Shown: positions 11,326-62,108 of the stretch, in pieces
How positions within the stretch are numbered: the first letter of the stretch is position 1
Layout of the letters: each line of letters starts with the position of its first letter
Assembly (NCBI GenBank): GCA_902790475.1
Contig: CADASG010000006.1
Location: 29,124-93,123, forward strand
From: an uncultured Ruminococcus sp.
GTDB taxonomy: Bacteria > Bacillota > Clostridia > Oscillospirales > Acutalibacteraceae
Length of the DNA stretch: 64,000 bases
Direction: 5' to 3'
Translations under genes and position numbers: made by a program
The notes under the pieces: model-generated
What the model saw: only the letters and a program-made list of their open reading frames with translations
Databases searched by the model: none
What the model was told of the DNA's origin: nothing

Positions 11326-11392
11326 GATATATTAGTACTTGGATAGGTGTTTATACTACAATTTTCTACTATTAATTAATGAGGTGAAACGA

Positions 11393-13114
11393 ATGGATAC
11401 AATGAAGCTTTACAAAGACTGGTGCGAAAAAGCTGTTGACGACGCGGATTTAGTCAGTGAGCTTGCGGCGATTCAGGAGGATCAAAAGGAGATTTACGAA
11501 CGCTTCTACACTGCGCTGAAATTCGGCACGGCAGGACTCAGAGGCATTATCGGAGCAGGTACCAACCGCATGAACATCTATGTTGTGCGTCAGGCTACCC
11601 AGGGTCTGGCAAACTACGTGCTGAAAAAATACGGCAAGGGCGCAGTGGCTATTTCACACGACAGCCGCATCAAAGCCGATTTATTTATGATTGAGGCAGC
11701 AAAAGTCTTGGCGGCAAACGGAATAAAGGCATATATAACTTCCGAGCTGCAGCCGACTCCCGTTTTGTCCTATCTGGTACGCTATTTCCATTGCCAGGCA
11801 GGTATTATGGTTACGGCAAGCCACAATGAAGCAAAGTATAACGGCTACAAGGCATACGGCGAGGACGGTTGTCAGATGACCGACAACGCCGCAAACGCCG
11901 TATATGACGAGATCACTTCTCTTGATATATTTGACGATGTAAAGACCATGGACTTTGACGAAGCGGTCAAAGCAGGTCTGATCGAATACGTTGATGACAG
12001 CGTTTATGACAGCTATCTTGAAAAGGTGCTTGAACAGCAGGTAAACCCCGGTATTTGCAAAGAAACCAACTTAAAGGTAGTATACACACCCCTCAACGGC
12101 TGCGGAAACAAGCTCGTCAGAAAGGTGCTTGAAAAAATCGGCGTAACCGAAACCGTGATAGTCAAGGAGCAGGAGCTGCCCGACGGCAACTTCCCCACCT
12201 GTCCGTATCCCAATCCTGAAACACGCGAAGCATTGCAGCGCGGCTTGGATCTGTGCGAGACCGAGCAGCCCGATCTGCTGCTTGCCACCGATCCCGACTC
12301 CGACAGAGTGGGCATTGCCGTAAAGGATTACGACGGCAGCTACCGTTTGATAACGGGCAACGAAAACGGCGTGATGCTGACCAACTACATTCTTTCCTGC
12401 AAAAAGGAAAACGGCACTCTGCCCGAAAAGCCCGTGGTGGTTAAGACAATTGTCAGCACTCCGCTTATCGACAAGCTGTGCGACGACTACGGCTGCGAGC
12501 TGAAAAACGTTTTGACAGGCTTTAAATACATCGGCGAAGTGATTCTTAATTTAGAGAAGGATCACGAGGAAAACCGCTATATGTTCGGCTTTGAGGAAAG
12601 CTACGGTTATTTGGCAGGCACCTATGTGCGCGACAAGGACGCTGTTGTCGCTTCCATGCTGATTTGCGAAATGGCAGCGTATTACAAAAAACAGGATAAG
12701 GATACTCTTGCAAGCGTAATCGACGGACTGTATAAGAAATACGGTTACTATCTGAACAAAACCTTCTCGTTTAAATATGAAGGCGCTGAGGGTATGCAGA
12801 AAATGGCTGATATCATGAGCGGCATTCGCGGTAATCTGCCCGAGAGCATAGCCGGCTTCAAGGTTTTGAAGGTCAGCGACTACCAGCTTAAAACCGAAAC
12901 CGACATGACAACAGGAGAAGAAACCAAGCTCACCCTCCCCACCTCCAACGTCATCGCGCTCCATCTTGAGGGCAACAATTGTGTGATCGTCCGTCCCAGC
13001 GGCACGGAGCCGAAAATCAAGCTCTACATCACCGCTGTTGAAGAAAGCAAAGAAAAAGCGACCGAAATATGCAACAAGCTTCTTGAATCTTCCGAGGAAG
13101 TTTTGGGACTGTAA
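11393..13114 (+). CDS. pgcA: Phosphoglucomutase/phosphomannomutase family protein
   Basis: 573 residues, start at the ATG at 11393 behind GAGGTGAAACGA (an upstream in-frame start at 11339 has no such site). The motifs of alpha-D-phosphohexomutases are present: FGTAGLRGIIGAG near the N-terminus, the phosphoserine loop MVTASHNEAKYNGYK, the metal site TDPDSDRVG, the sugar-recognition loop GFEESYGYL and the phosphate-binding RPSGTEPKIK. It converts glucose 6-phosphate to glucose 1-phosphate, which supplies UDP-glucose for glycans. The family member of this length in Firmicutes is PgcA. Its place beside glycosyltransferase genes fits a supply role. Confidence 0.92.
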   Translation: MDTMKLYKDWCEKAVDDADLVSELAAIQEDQKEIYERFYTALKFGTAGLRGIIGAGTNRMNIYVVRQATQGLANYVLKKYGKGAVAISHDSRIKADLFMIEAAKVLAANGIKAYITSELQPTPVLSYLVRYFHCQAGIMVTASHNEAKYNGYKAYGEDGCQMTDNAANAVYDEITSLDIFDDVKTMDFDEAVKAGLIEYVDDSVYDSYLEKVLEQQVNPGICKETNLKVVYTPLNGCGNKLVRKVLEKIGVTETVIVKEQELPDGNFPTCPYPNPETREALQRGLDLCETEQPDLLLATDPDSDRVGIAVKDYDGSYRLITGNENGVMLTNYILSCKKENGTLPEKPVVVKTIVSTPLIDKLCDDYGCELKNVLTGFKYIGEVILNLEKDHEENRYMFGFEESYGYLAGTYVRDKDAVVASMLICEMAAYYKKQDKDTLASVIDGLYKKYGYYLNKTFSFKYEGAEGMQKMADIMSGIRGNLPESIAGFKVLKVSDYQLKTETDMTTGEETKLTLPTSNVIALHLEGNNCVIVRPSGTEPKIKLYITAVEESKEKATEICNKLLESSEEVLGL

Positions 13115-13307: not shown

Positions 13308-13335
13308 GCGGACGACAAAAGAGGCGGCAAACGCT
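13308..13335 (-). terminator. Terminator of the 13.3-13.94 kb minus-strand transcript
   Basis: Minus-strand AAGAGGCGGCA / TGCCGCCTCTT, a perfect 11-bp stem with a 5-nt loop, followed by TTTG. No minus-strand ORF ends just before it. It closes the transcript that starts near 13937. Confidence 0.75.
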
Positions 13336-13370
13336 GCCGCCTCTTGAAATCCTTCAAAAAATTAACTGAA

Positions 13371-13570
13371 CTTGGGACTCAACTCCGAAAATAGATTTTG
13401 TTTTGGATTGAAAAATGAGTATTACATTGGACTAATCTCCGTTCGTCAAAATACCAAGAAAAAGATTAAACATACATGGGACTAATCTCCTATCAATCGA
13501 AAAACAATTATCTTACTGAAATCCGTCGATATATATATCGAAAAAGTTATACTCTCATTGGACTATCCTC
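13371..13570 (-). repeat. Four spaced copies of a 16-bp motif
   Basis: Plus-strand copies end at 13386 (CTTGGGACTCAACTCC), 13440 (CATTGGACTAATCTCC), 13490 (CATGGGACTAATCTCC) and 13570 (CATTGGACTATCCTC). A fifth, longer variant lies at 13843-13860 inside the 32-codon ORF. The spacings are 54, 50, 80 and about 290 bp. On the minus strand each copy reads as a GGAG followed 8 nt later by ATG (absent in the first copy) and then, within 0-2 codons, a stop and a T-run. Confidence 0.75.
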
Positions 13571-13807
13571 AGTGTTAAAATTCTTAGAAGACTTTTTAAT
13601 ATTAAATTGTAAGTAAGTCCGAAACCCGACCGCTTACTTGTAAGGCTGAGCCGATTATTGGGATAAGCGCTTCCTATATATCAACATCTATGAAAGTATG
13701 GAGGGCTATTCGACGGAAGCTGCCTATCATATGAATGCAAATCACGAAAAATAATAATTAATATGTTTTATAACATTGAAAATCTATGTTGCTTCAACTC
13801 AATAAGC

Positions 13808-13906
13808 TTAATCAGCGGTACCCGTAAACTCCGGGCGTGTTACATTGGGGGGTAATCTCCGCAGATAGTCTTTAATCTGTGGTCTGTAAGAAAACTTTAC
13901 TTTCAT
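13808..13906 (-). CDS. 32-residue basic small protein at the head of the candidate RNA
   Basis: ATG at 13906 with a perfect AGGAGG 8 nt upstream. The product (MKVKFSYRPQIKDYLRRLPP, then NVTRPEFTGTAD) is basic and Pro-rich with no membrane segment. Ribosome binding site quality and the promoter 38 bp upstream argue that it is translated. Codons 16-23 overlap one copy of the locus's 16-bp motif, so either the ORF seeded the repeats or the motif has an RNA-level role that happens to be translated. No family is recognised. Confidence 0.5.
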   Translation of the reverse strand: MKVKFSYRPQIKDYLRRLPPNVTRPEFTGTAD

Positions 13907-13943
13907 ATTAAAGACCTCCTTGTCATCTCTTTGATTTGTCTAT

Positions 13944-13972
13944 ATTATATATCATATTCTCAACAATGTCAA
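13944..13972 (-). promoter_or_regulatory. Strong promoter of the candidate RNA
   Basis: Minus-strand TTGACA, 17-bp spacer, TATAAT: a perfect consensus match, among the strongest promoter-like sequences in the window. Confidence 0.8.
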
Positions 13973-14016: not shown

Positions 14017-14045
14017 TTGCGAAGCTATAAAAATTGTGGTATAAT
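14017..14045 (+). promoter_or_regulatory. Divergent promoter pointing at a terminator only
   Basis: TTGCGA, 17-bp spacer, TATAAT. It faces away from the promoter at 13944-13972, 45 bp distant. Only a hairpin lies downstream before the convergent ydcF-like gene. Confidence 0.55.
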
Positions 14046-14051
14046 GTATAT

Positions 14052-14104
14052 TGTGAGAGTGCAGAAAAAGCAGAGCCGAACGTTAAAACGGCTCTGCTTT
14101 TTTA
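14052..14104 (+). ncRNA. Possible ~50-nt small RNA
   Basis: This is the interval from the predicted start of the promoter at 14017 to the end of the terminator. The transcript would be little more than a 13-nt head and the hairpin. It may be an sRNA or just promoter noise against a terminator. Confidence 0.25.
14065..14104. terminator. Bidirectional terminator after the ydcF-like gene
   Basis: AAAAAGCAGAGCCG / CGGCTCTGCTTTTTT with a 10-nt loop. It works for the minus-strand gene at 14124 and for the plus-strand promoter at 14017. Confidence 0.85.
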
Positions 14105-14123: not shown

Positions 14124-15629
14124 TTACATCATAATAAACGCCAAGACAGCGAAGCTCAGCGCCGTGATCCCCGCATAAAACAGATGGCGCCACCTTTCTT
14201 CAAACAGCAGTCCGATGAACTCTCTGACAAAAGCGTTGGGATAATAATAGAGCTTTGTTTTTGCCGAAAGACCCCGTGCCTTCAAGCCGTTTTTTTTGGC
14301 TAATATGTAACCGCGAAACACATGGTAGTTGGTGGTCGAAAAAGCGACGGCAGGCTCTTCCCCTTCATTCGTATTTTCATTGATTATCCTTTTGGAGTAT
14401 TCCATATTCTGTCGGGTGTTTACGCTTTTATCTTCCTTTAGTATCCGTTCCTCGGGAACACCCAGCGTTAATAAACAGCGCTTCATGCTCTCAGCCTCCG
14501 AGATTATCTCATCACTCCCCCTGCCTCCTGAGGGTATAAAACAAGCGTGCTTGCCTGTTGCCTGAAACTGTGCCTGCTCATATTCAAAGGCTCGGTCGAT
14601 TCTGCTGCGGAGTATCGGCGTGGGAGTTCCGTCACTGCGGATAGCGCAGCCTAAAATGATGATATAATCCATTGAATAAGGCACTTTGTAACGCGTCGCC
14701 ATAACCGCGCAAACAATGGTCGAGAACAGCATACATTCCAAATAGCAAAACGCATATTGCAGCGCTGAGTCAATAGCGCTGTACACCTTGTACTCAAACG
14801 GATCGCTTAAAAAACGAGAGGAAGAAAACACAATAATAAAGGCAAAAGCTGCGATGATCGTAAAGCCAAATATCATTCCCAGCAGATTAACGGGATGAAC
14901 TCCCTCGTGTCGGATCAGCCAAAGGTTACTTAGCGAAACAGCCACGGCTAAAATAAGCAGGATCGGAAATGTAATTATCGCAAACATTATCCCACCGTAA
15001 ACAAGCAGACTGCACAATTCATTAAATGATGAAATACCAAAGCTTCTGTCATTTCCGCTGGTGATTGCCCAATATAGGATCAAATTCAACAGTATACCGA
15101 TCGAATAGAGCCAAGCTCCGCCTAATGCGACCATAGAATATGAAAACTCACCCTTGGTTTGTTTTTCAATAAAAGACCTGCCGAAAAAGACCGCTACCAA
15201 AAAAATCGACAGTAATAAAGACGGAAACAAAACAAAATATCCGTTGAATTCATGAGCTGTAGAATTGAAAACAAAACCGCCGGGCAAGACCAAAACACGA
15301 AAGTCACGTTTCAAATTTACCTTTCCGTCTTGATTTTGATAAATGCTGACGGTGGTTTCGCCGGAGCTGCGGCCTTCAAAAGTAAAGTTAGGCAAATCAA
15401 ATGAACCGTAAGGTTTCGTATTTTTAACAGATTTTAAGGCTACAATGTCGGGATTATCTATTTTTACGGAATAATCGGAAACAGAGCTAAAAAATTCACC
15501 CGGGTAAAGCCTTTCGGTATAAACCTGTGAGTTAAAATAAACAGCAACTGCCGAAACTGCAAAAATCACCGCCAAAATTATGATCAGAACAAAATATCGT
15601 TTTTTAAATTCACGTTCTTGCTTTTTCAT
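14124..15629 (-). CDS. Polytopic membrane protein with a YdcF/ElyC-type (DUF218) domain
   Basis: 501 residues. After an N-terminal helix (residues about 10-30) comes an extracytoplasmic part (residues about 32-110, beta-rich, ends DFRVLVLPGG). About six membrane helices follow (115-320), then a DUF218 domain at about 325-480. The domain shows IILGCAIRSDGTPTPIL, SGGRGSDE with SEAESM, and NTRQNMEYSK, which match YdcF/SanA/ElyC proteins implicated in envelope metabolism. A last helix ends the protein. The family member alone is about 200-260 residues, so the N-terminal 320 residues are an addition. It has its own promoter and terminator. Confidence 0.8.
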   Translation of the reverse strand: MKKQEREFKKRYFVLIIILAVIFAVSAVAVYFNSQVYTERLYPGEFFSSVSDYSVKIDNPDIVALKSVKNTKPYGSFDLPNFTFEGRSSGETTVSIYQNQDGKVNLKRDFRVLVLPGGFVFNSTAHEFNGYFVLFPSLLLSIFLVAVFFGRSFIEKQTKGEFSYSMVALGGAWLYSIGILLNLILYWAITSGNDRSFGISSFNELCSLLVYGGIMFAIITFPILLILAVAVSLSNLWLIRHEGVHPVNLLGMIFGFTIIAAFAFIIVFSSSRFLSDPFEYKVYSAIDSALQYAFCYLECMLFSTIVCAVMATRYKVPYSMDYIIILGCAIRSDGTPTPILRSRIDRAFEYEQAQFQATGKHACFIPSGGRGSDEIISEAESMKRCLLTLGVPEERILKEDKSVNTRQNMEYSKRIINENTNEGEEPAVAFSTTNYHVFRGYILAKKNGLKARGLSAKTKLYYYPNAFVREFIGLLFEERWRHLFYAGITALSFAVLAFIMM

Positions 15630-15793: not shown

Positions 15794-16042
15794 TCATTTT
15801 TCCCTGCCGAGAAGGTAGTCTACGGAAACCTCAAGAATATCAGCCAGTGCAACCAGCTCTACGTCGGTGACAAAGCGAATCTGTCCCTCCAGCTTTGAAA
15901 GCCCCGACGCGTTCATATCTACGCCGTTAACCTGAAGCTGGGCAAGCAGTTCTTTTTGTTTCATACCTTTTTGCTTTCTGACCAACTCAACACGGTTGCC
16001 CACCAAATTTCTGTCTCCCAATTCCTGTTTGCGTAATCTCAT
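15794..16042 (-). CDS. XRE-family transcriptional regulator
   Basis: 82 residues from the ATG at 16042, behind TTGGAGAG; the TTG at 16057 lies within that ribosome binding site and is not a plausible start. A single HTH (VGNRVELVRKQKGMKQKELL, then GLSKLEGQIRFVTD) and ADILEVSVDYLLGREK complete a minimal XRE fold with no effector domain. Such proteins usually bind as dimers to repeats near their own promoter. Here four to five direct repeats lie between the predicted transcription start and the gene. Confidence 0.85.
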   Translation of the reverse strand: MRLRKQELGDRNLVGNRVELVRKQKGMKQKELLAQLQVNGVDMNASGLSKLEGQIRFVTDVELVALADILEVSVDYLLGREK

Positions 16043-16079
16043 TTTTATTCTCTCCAATTAGTTTTAATTCCTTTTTGAA

Positions 16080-62015: not shown

Positions 62016-62108
62016 GGAGAGATGTCCGAGCTGGCCGAAGGAGCATGATTGGAAATCATGTGTACGGTAATCACCGTACCAGGGGTTCGAATCCCCTTCT
62101 CTCCGCCA
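62016..62108 (+). tRNA. tRNA-Ser (anticodon GGA)
   Basis: 93 nt with a 7-bp acceptor stem (GGAGAGA / TCTCTCC), discriminator G and encoded CCA. The anticodon arm CATGATTGGAAATCATG gives GGA, for serine UCC/UCU. The long variable arm TGTACGGTAATCACCGTAC is class II, as expected for serine. The T-arm is GGGGTTCGAATCCCC. A U-tailed terminator follows. Confidence 0.97.

Follow-up and report, generated by a model that had tools for sequence, protein, structure and literature searches.

An RNA family of the Ruminococcus bromii group with a conserved leader peptide and an array of translation starts that stop early

What does a bacterial transcription unit specify when strong signals bracket about 620 nt and no ordinary gene lies between them? 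The question arises at positions 13,308 through 13,972 of a 64,000-nucleotide stretch of DNA from an uncultured Ruminococcus sp. (GenBank assembly GCA_902790475.1, contig CADASG010000006.1, positions 29,124 through 93,123; herein the window). The feature is on the minus strand, a point that a preliminary description of the sequence had left unstated. As that description had it, a TTGACA-17-TATAAT promoter matches the consensus at 12 of 12 positions (13944..13972), and an intrinsic terminator with a perfect 11-bp stem (AAGAGGCGGCA-GCGTT-TGCCGCCTCTT, then TTG; 13319..13345) can be read from the sequence; an automated terminator scan of the window returned merely a 5-pair core of this stem. With the start of transcription assumed at ∼13937, 7 nt past TATAAT, the 5′ end taken from the promoter and the 3′ end from the terminator, the predicted transcript spans ∼620 nt (13317..13937), and a like unit is present in relatives. 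Judged by its promoter sequence, the RNA would be strongly expressed and is probably abundant. The 32-residue open reading frame (ORF) at its 5′ end (MKVKFSYRPQIKDYLRRLPPNVTRPEFTGTAD; 13808..13906, minus strand), preceded at a distance of 9 nt by the Shine-Dalgarno (SD) sequence AAGGAGG (13915..13921), is the only ORF of the region with a strong SD. This leader ORF matches no Pfam family, and a scan of three more small ORFs from the region gave nothing beyond one weak Pfam match (E 0.3).

The preliminary description could not assign the RNA to a known class, and our searches leave it outside all of them. With Rfam, the whole window gave a tRNA at 62016-62105 only; the region itself, at E values up to 5, gave seven matches, all far below gathering scores; and 14 homologous loci gave tRNAs only. 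ROOL, GOLLD, OLE, raiA, and the other Rfam classes are rejected, as none matches at gathering score. A literature search, with subscription papers and supplements outside its scope, found no published description of the RNA, which is a new class and an unrecorded family. It resembles OLE, ROOL, GOLLD, and raiA in its length of hundreds of nucleotides, its own transcription unit, and its extensive conserved structure; it differs from them in being chromosomal, in carrying a selected leader peptide and an array of start-stop sites, and in having no Rfam match.

We searched for relatives at several taxonomic depths. A first BLAST matched 13 of 60 related genomes, the window's own included, and a pattern of SD, ATG, and RSLPPN codons found 56 stretches among 84,980 species genomes. 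Named hosts are R. bromii YE282, 5AMG, and ATCC 27255, Ruminococcus sp. FMBCY1, and Ruminococcaceae bacterium P7; the others are titled Ruminococcus, Ruminococcaceae, Clostridia, or Clostridiales, and once just bacterium. Within the genus, whose label we take to be Ruminococcus_E, the leader pattern is present in 76 of 162 genomes (39 of the 82 of good quality) and has no match in the other 86; it misses the window's own genome, through a Ser-to-Arg change, as well as copies with another SD, and four of the genus matches look like chance in genomes that also hold a true copy. In the family sample it is present in 3 of 398 genomes, all among six members of the same genus, and absent from the 392 genomes of other genera. 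Of 394 genomes in the order sample, 3 matched: two belong to this genus, and the third match looks like an unrelated ORF. The Model R1 search matched 51 of 162 genus genomes and 1 of 394 in the order sample (the window's own), a weak result for the order since the model misses divergent members (G033 and G158 in that sample, both with the leader ORF); for family and order the leader pattern is the stronger evidence. A BLAST figure of 83 of 162 genus genomes takes in promoter-only matches and is unusable as a copy count. On these searches the RNA is, as far as sampled, confined to one genus, the R. bromii group.

The window genome holds one full copy, and one other genome (G102) holds two different copies at separate loci, L161 and L063, the latter with CGGAGG as its SD and so outside the leader pattern. 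Two near-identical matches on separate contigs of a further genome (G114) may be one copy assembled twice. Viral contigs, phages, and plasmids gave 0 matches in searches that strongly diverged copies would escape, and on this result an origin from phage or plasmid is rejected.

The transcription unit itself is conserved. Among 59 distinct homologous loci, both TTGACA and TATAAT are perfect in all 59, with a spacing of 16 or 17 nt; the pattern that collected them admitted only a small set of other hexamers, and the −10 does deviate in some loci read subsequently. By our rule a terminator follows in 53 of the 59; five of the remaining six reach the end of their sequence, and one (L040) has none by the rule. 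A further 20 loci comprise 19 with a terminator and one that is cut off. Terminator ends for 52 loci were entered by hand, and that of L021, where the rule chose a later hairpin, was set by eye. The stem sequence varies among lineages, and the distance from promoter to terminator ranges from ∼360 to ∼1,310 nt. By this comparison the RNA is free-standing, with its own promoter and terminator. Two possible objections named beforehand fall away, since different species share the RNA and the region is not covered by any protein family.

Is the leader translated? Across 59 ORFs the conserved part of the peptide reads M-...-I-K-D-[FY]-x-R-S-[LF]-P-P-N, the residues before RS being somewhat variable. 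The core is RRLPPN in the window against RS[LF]PPN in the family, hence the Ser-to-Arg change mentioned above. PPN is present in 58 of the 59, the remaining ORF being interrupted by a contig end, and begins at residue 19 in 52 and at residue 18 in 6. The stretch behind it is variable in length and sequence, and total length in the family is 20 to 35 residues. In 136 close pairs, substitutions at codon positions 1, 2, and 3 number 190, 145, and 588 (588 of 923 at position 3), and single-base codon changes comprise 428 synonymous and 171 nonsynonymous ones. This pattern indicates that the 5′ ORF is a real peptide under coding selection; together with the diproline motif discussed below, it upholds the earlier suggestion of a leader-peptide-like regulatory RNA. 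A decayed longer protein gene is rejected as the source, since relatives share the same short ORF of at most 35 residues.

An mRNA for a small protein would account for the strong purifying selection on the peptide and for the strong SD and promoter. The 20- to 35-residue peptide would then be the product, and the rest of the RNA a long regulatory or stabilizing 3′ UTR on which ribosomes at the micro-ORFs described below act against decay. We consider this unlikely, however: the residues after PPN vary in both length and sequence, and the 3′ part exceeds the needs of a UTR in length, structure, and regularity. Staphylococcal RNAIII and SgrS are dual-function RNAs that join a small peptide to a long structured regulatory RNA. 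The present RNA likewise has one small peptide and a long structured part but differs from them in its array of micro-ORFs, its restriction to one genus, and its lack of an Rfam match.

The leader is also marked at the RNA level. A GGAG element inside the ORF (13857..13861, minus strand), related to an iterated motif farther downstream, falls on the Arg-Ser codons of relatives and on Arg-Arg here. The first ORF pattern had demanded GGAG, and invariance was therefore retested without that condition: the element is kept in 50 of 50 ORFs so collected. For comparison, CGG and AGG together make up 85 of the 528 Arg codons in long ORFs of the window. Since GGAG is fixed in a stretch under coding selection, this part of the leader is constrained both as peptide and as RNA.

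By sequence, the leader qualifies as a diproline pause peptide, carrying a Pro-Pro-X of the pausing type (PPN). PPN is described as a diproline motif that causes arrest, an effect that EF-P relieves in Escherichia coli (PMC11611912, PMC6544042). Ribosomes translating the leader may accordingly be expected to pause at Pro-Pro-Asn. Leaders of the arrest-peptide kind (SecM, ApdP, RAPP-type) are similar in their short ORF, their core of Arg plus Pro-Pro, and the structure right behind it; the present leader differs in its RS[LF]PPN core, its own terminator, and the absence of a cis gene downstream in the loci that adjoin a phosphoglucomutase gene. The RAPP motif is given as the mark of known arrest peptides in PMC12992588, and a RAPP-type arrest peptide is rejected here, the core being RS[LF]PPN rather than RAPP, RGPP, RAGP, or RxPP.

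Behind the leader, the fold of the window RNA taken alone is of unremarkable stability (z −1.23; equaled by 3 of 20 shuffles). Structure was assessed in a main-class alignment of 27 sequences, a chosen part of the family with rows picked for ending near a conserved linker. The RIBOSUM consensus energy of this alignment is −32.9, compared with −13.5 (sd 3.4) in 60 column shuffles, all of which lie higher. Three helices have 85.0% of their cells paired against at most 48.1% when slid, a control that favors them because they derive from the same alignment; 25 of their 29 consensus pairs have changed on both sides, and 0 of 500 shuffles reach any of five measures taken on these helices. The consensus fold at default settings is weak (16 pairs, −3.48 kcal/mol; 12 pairs changed on both sides). 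A tree-based covariation test of our own writing, applied to 40 full-length rows (43 minus three near-duplicates; the 43 have a mean identity of ∼56%), left a single pair with E < 0.05 and a terminator pair at 0.15, with the others above 1. The large structured RNA proposed at the outset is supported by covariation in the alignment of 27. Its domain includes P2 (13653..13807; 13807-13798 with 13662-13653), in which 10 of 10 pairs changed on both sides, and P3 (13732..13796; 13796-13783 with 13749-13732), with 12 of 14; it ends at the conserved linker ACAATTTAATAT (13599..13610), where 11 of 12 columns are identical in the 27 rows and the twelfth is at least 90% so. All three elements are read on the minus strand.

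The window forms 22 of the 29 consensus pairs. This shortfall, the low coding density, and the Ser-to-Arg change in the peptide motif would suit a decayed gene or a set of chance signals, but promoter, ORF, structure, array, and terminator are all conserved in dozens of species, which refutes that explanation for the family, and we give it next to no credence.

The third helix points to a switch. P1 is a local hairpin (13822..13836; arms 13836-13832 and 13826-13822, minus strand) directly 3′ of the PPN codons, and its 5′ arm can pair alternatively with a distal strand (13625..13629) ∼200 nt away to form a long-range helix. For the local hairpin, native pairing beats crossed pairing in 25 of 27 sequences (mean −9.7 versus −6.7 kcal/mol); for the long-range helix, the native duplex beats the crossed one, again in 25 of 27 (mean −12.0 versus −8.9 kcal/mol). 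In the window, two of the five aligned P1 pairs are standard. By this comparison the structured domain of the main class carries two mutually exclusive, covarying helices right behind the ORF. A ribosome paused at PPN would sit against the 5′ strand of P1, and the pause would then set the choice between local hairpin and long-range helix. Short-class members consist of the leader ORF, a small hairpin, the array, and a terminator, without the large domain. The domain is therefore apparently dispensable for the core function, and the comparison indicates that those four elements are the common core of the family.

What, then, is the array? The preliminary description had noticed an iterated motif, which we find in four copies in addition to the related GGAG in the ORF; it did not recognize them as an array of sites at which translation would start and soon meet an in-frame stop. 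The motif consists of an SD (GGAG), a small GGA..UCC hairpin, an AUG, and an early in-frame stop. On the minus strand of the window, copy 1 reads GAGGATAGTCCA-ATG AGA GTA TAA (13547..13570, start at 13558), copy 2 GGAGATTAGTCCC-ATG TAT GTT TAA (13466..13490, start at 13477), and copy 3 GGAGATTAGTCCA-ATG TAA, a plain start-stop (13422..13440, start at 13427). In the fourth and last, AAG at 13373 replaces the start (GGAGTTGAGTCCC-AAG; 13371..13386).

The same arrangement recurs throughout the family. In 72 full-length RNAs we counted 281 copies, with ATG, GTG, TTG, and AAG alone admitted at the start position: 227 have ATG, 7 GTG, and 47 AAG. Among the seven GTG copies, one (L028) looks like chance and five are a single homologous site in close relatives. 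At least three ATG/GTG starts are present in 56 of the 72 RNAs, two in 15, and one in 1. In a count free of conditions on the start, 215 sites of the form GG[AT]G-n-[TA]CC are followed, after one base, by ATG in 162 cases, AAG in 34, GTG in 6, and another triplet in 13. AAG stands in the last copy of 39 of 52 loci and in 2 of 144 other copies in an earlier set, whose motif model we had seeded. A match to CC[ACG]A[AT]G was demanded there, which kept 196 of 207 hits and left ATG and AAG as the only countable triplets. The distance to the AUG is 8 or 9 nt in 60 of 63 copies scored as GGAG.

Stops follow these starts at close range. A stop falls within three codons in 171 of 234 ATG/GTG copies and within eleven in 233; for the 395 ATGs elsewhere in these RNAs the figures are 101 and 286. 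In 63 of the 234 copies the stop comes later than codon 3. Homologous array copies are not independent, which clustering by downstream similarity merely lessens; after it, a stop within three codons remains in 56 of 73 copies, where 2,000 shuffles average 16.8 (sd 3.7, maximum 31) and the other two frames give 19 and 4. The stops are TAA in 155 copies, TAG in 55, and TGA in 23. No sense codon at all separates start and stop in 52 of the 234, and AGA is the commonest first codon after the start (53 copies). Strictly conserved micropeptides are rejected, as the sense codons vary and the stop positions shift. Copies are spaced at a median of 55 nt, with 137 of 209 intervals at 50 to 59 nt; 1 of the 209 is shorter than 40 nt, compared with 78 (sd 5) under random placement between the outer copies. 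Such regular spacing could come from duplication of a unit alone. Three members of the short class (L156, L164, and L167) have six or seven copies, many of them AUG-NNN-UAG, and by sequence are cases of array expansion without the structured domain.

Very short ORFs with good start signals are found in the bar minigenes of phage lambda, and bar RNA is the model for drop-off of peptidyl-tRNA from minigenes. By analogy, the array might drain tRNA as peptidyl-tRNA released from ORFs of one to three codons, and the zero to two sense codons after AUG in 171 of 234 copies and the frequency of AGA would agree with this. Yet the sense codons differ widely, and 52 copies have none at all; we hold a tRNA drain to be very unlikely. 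The present RNA also departs from bar in having several such sites in an array, in its unconstrained sense codons, and in not having been found in phages.

The closest rival to a reading of the array as ribosome sites is a protein-binding scaffold with silencing stops. The RNA would work as OLE does, with GGA-loop-UCC-AAUG as a repeated binding site for a protein, maybe a ribosomal or initiation protein, and early stops would be selected solely because an accidental SD-AUG must not launch long translation. In its favor are the existence of the structured domain, the last copy, which mostly lacks AUG yet retains GGAG..UCC, and the mini-hairpin, which partly covaries (its third pair forms in 132 of 155 copies, 112 being expected, a modest support). 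OLE is itself proposed to sequester RpsU (PMC12286853), which adds to the case. Against a scaffold, the start triplet is ATG in 162 of the 215 sites and GTG in 6, with few others beyond the AAG of the last copy, as expected of a start codon, and the distance from SD to AUG matches that of real starts. We regard a scaffold as possible but somewhat improbable. The MS2 translational operator likewise places an SD in a small hairpin just before AUG; the present element differs from it in being repeated in an array without a long ORF behind.

The same layout is found at ordinary starts. GGAG-n-UCC-VATG has 16 matches in the window genome, two of them inside the RNA, compared with 4 for the reversed pattern. 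Twelve places that we chose from 78 matches over five genomes comprise four starts of EF-Tu, one of pyruvate phosphate dikinase, one of an acyl carrier protein (presumptive identities, from the protein sequences), and six other frames, namely a lipoprotein-like ORF, a transposase-like ORF, and four short frames. The EF-Tu starts (L176-L179; genomes G063, G032, G106, and G000) read GGAGGAAA(A/U)UUCCAAUG, with the SD within a small hairpin directly before the start; the layout is similar at the acyl carrier protein (L187) and pyruvate phosphate dikinase (L182) starts. The fifth genome, G137, contributed one place, with EF-Tu outside the scope. As the layout is common to EF-Tu-type starts, the array copies resemble the starts of genes that are usually highly expressed.

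This likeness would suit a sponge for an antisense RNA or a translational repressor that normally acts on EF-Tu-like starts with SD-hairpin-CCAATG, the layout being common to EF-Tu starts in four genomes and to the acyl carrier protein and dikinase starts. But it may simply be a common strong start, and the window genome yielded no CsrA, the protein best known for binding GGA hairpins (PF02599; the genome is 94% complete, so a gap is possible; a control search was positive in 3 of 14 genomes). A sponge of this general kind seems improbable to us, and a CsrA sponge is rejected on the last result. The sponges CsrB and RsmZ have iterated GGA-containing hairpins, as the present RNA does, but here AUG and in-frame stops are conserved and CsrA was not found in the host genome.

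We are highly confident in the existence and anatomy of the RNA family: comparison supports the unit, the coding leader, the structure with both of its alternatives, and the start-stop array. For function, our tentative preference, held with well short of even confidence, is a ribosome-engaging regulatory RNA in which the pausing leader would set the fold and the array would dock initiating ribosomes in trans. The array would hold initiating ribosomes at ∼55-nt intervals while next to no protein is made, and the RNA would act in trans by titrating ribosomes or initiation components, as a translational brake or store whose capacity tracks translation of the leader peptide. The full proposal, a new RNA class in which a pausing leader, acting by way of a two-state RNA switch, gates a ribosome-docking start-stop array, is speculative, and we rate it as doubtful. 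If it held, a cell could store or withhold translation capacity by means of an RNA instead of a hibernation protein, and binding of ribosomes by the array would be a new route to global control of translation. The family in any case straddles the sorting of RNAs into coding and noncoding, as it looks selected for multiple ribosome entry with almost no product. R. bromii is a well-known starch degrader of gut and rumen; conservation and the presence in named strains of this species make the family directly testable.

Genomic surroundings bear on whether action would be in cis or in trans. The predicted RNA is followed in the window by a convergent phosphoglucomutase gene (11339-13114, plus strand), and upstream lie a gene for a DUF218 protein (14124-15629, minus strand) and one for a small helix-turn-helix-like protein (15794-16057, minus strand) that falls below all Pfam cutoffs (best HTH_31, E 0.00066). 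A gene of the latter kind is the commonest upstream neighbor (28 of 59 loci), in the window with the DUF218 gene in between, and convergent phosphoglucomutase lies downstream in 21 of 59; both counts are lower bounds, many loci being too short for both sides. Other loci sit in different surroundings. That the form of the RNA stays constant while its neighbors change favors action in trans. A short ORF under coding selection with mutually exclusive helices behind it, as seen in 25 of 27 sequences of the main class, is the arrangement of an attenuator, and the convergent gene makes cis control of a downstream gene unlikely in those 21 loci. A cis attenuator is rejected given the RNA's own terminator and the convergent phosphoglucomutase in the window and the 21 loci, to which the gene-by-gene check was confined. 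A type III toxin-antitoxin system is rejected in the window, where the downstream gene is the convergent phosphoglucomutase and upstream are DUF218 and the weak helix-turn-helix match. Between the RNA and the DUF218 gene, a GC-rich inverted repeat flanked by A/T runs (14072-14104) is perhaps the terminator of the latter, and just before it a promoter-like TTGCGA-17-TATAAT with TG is found on the plus strand (14017-14045).
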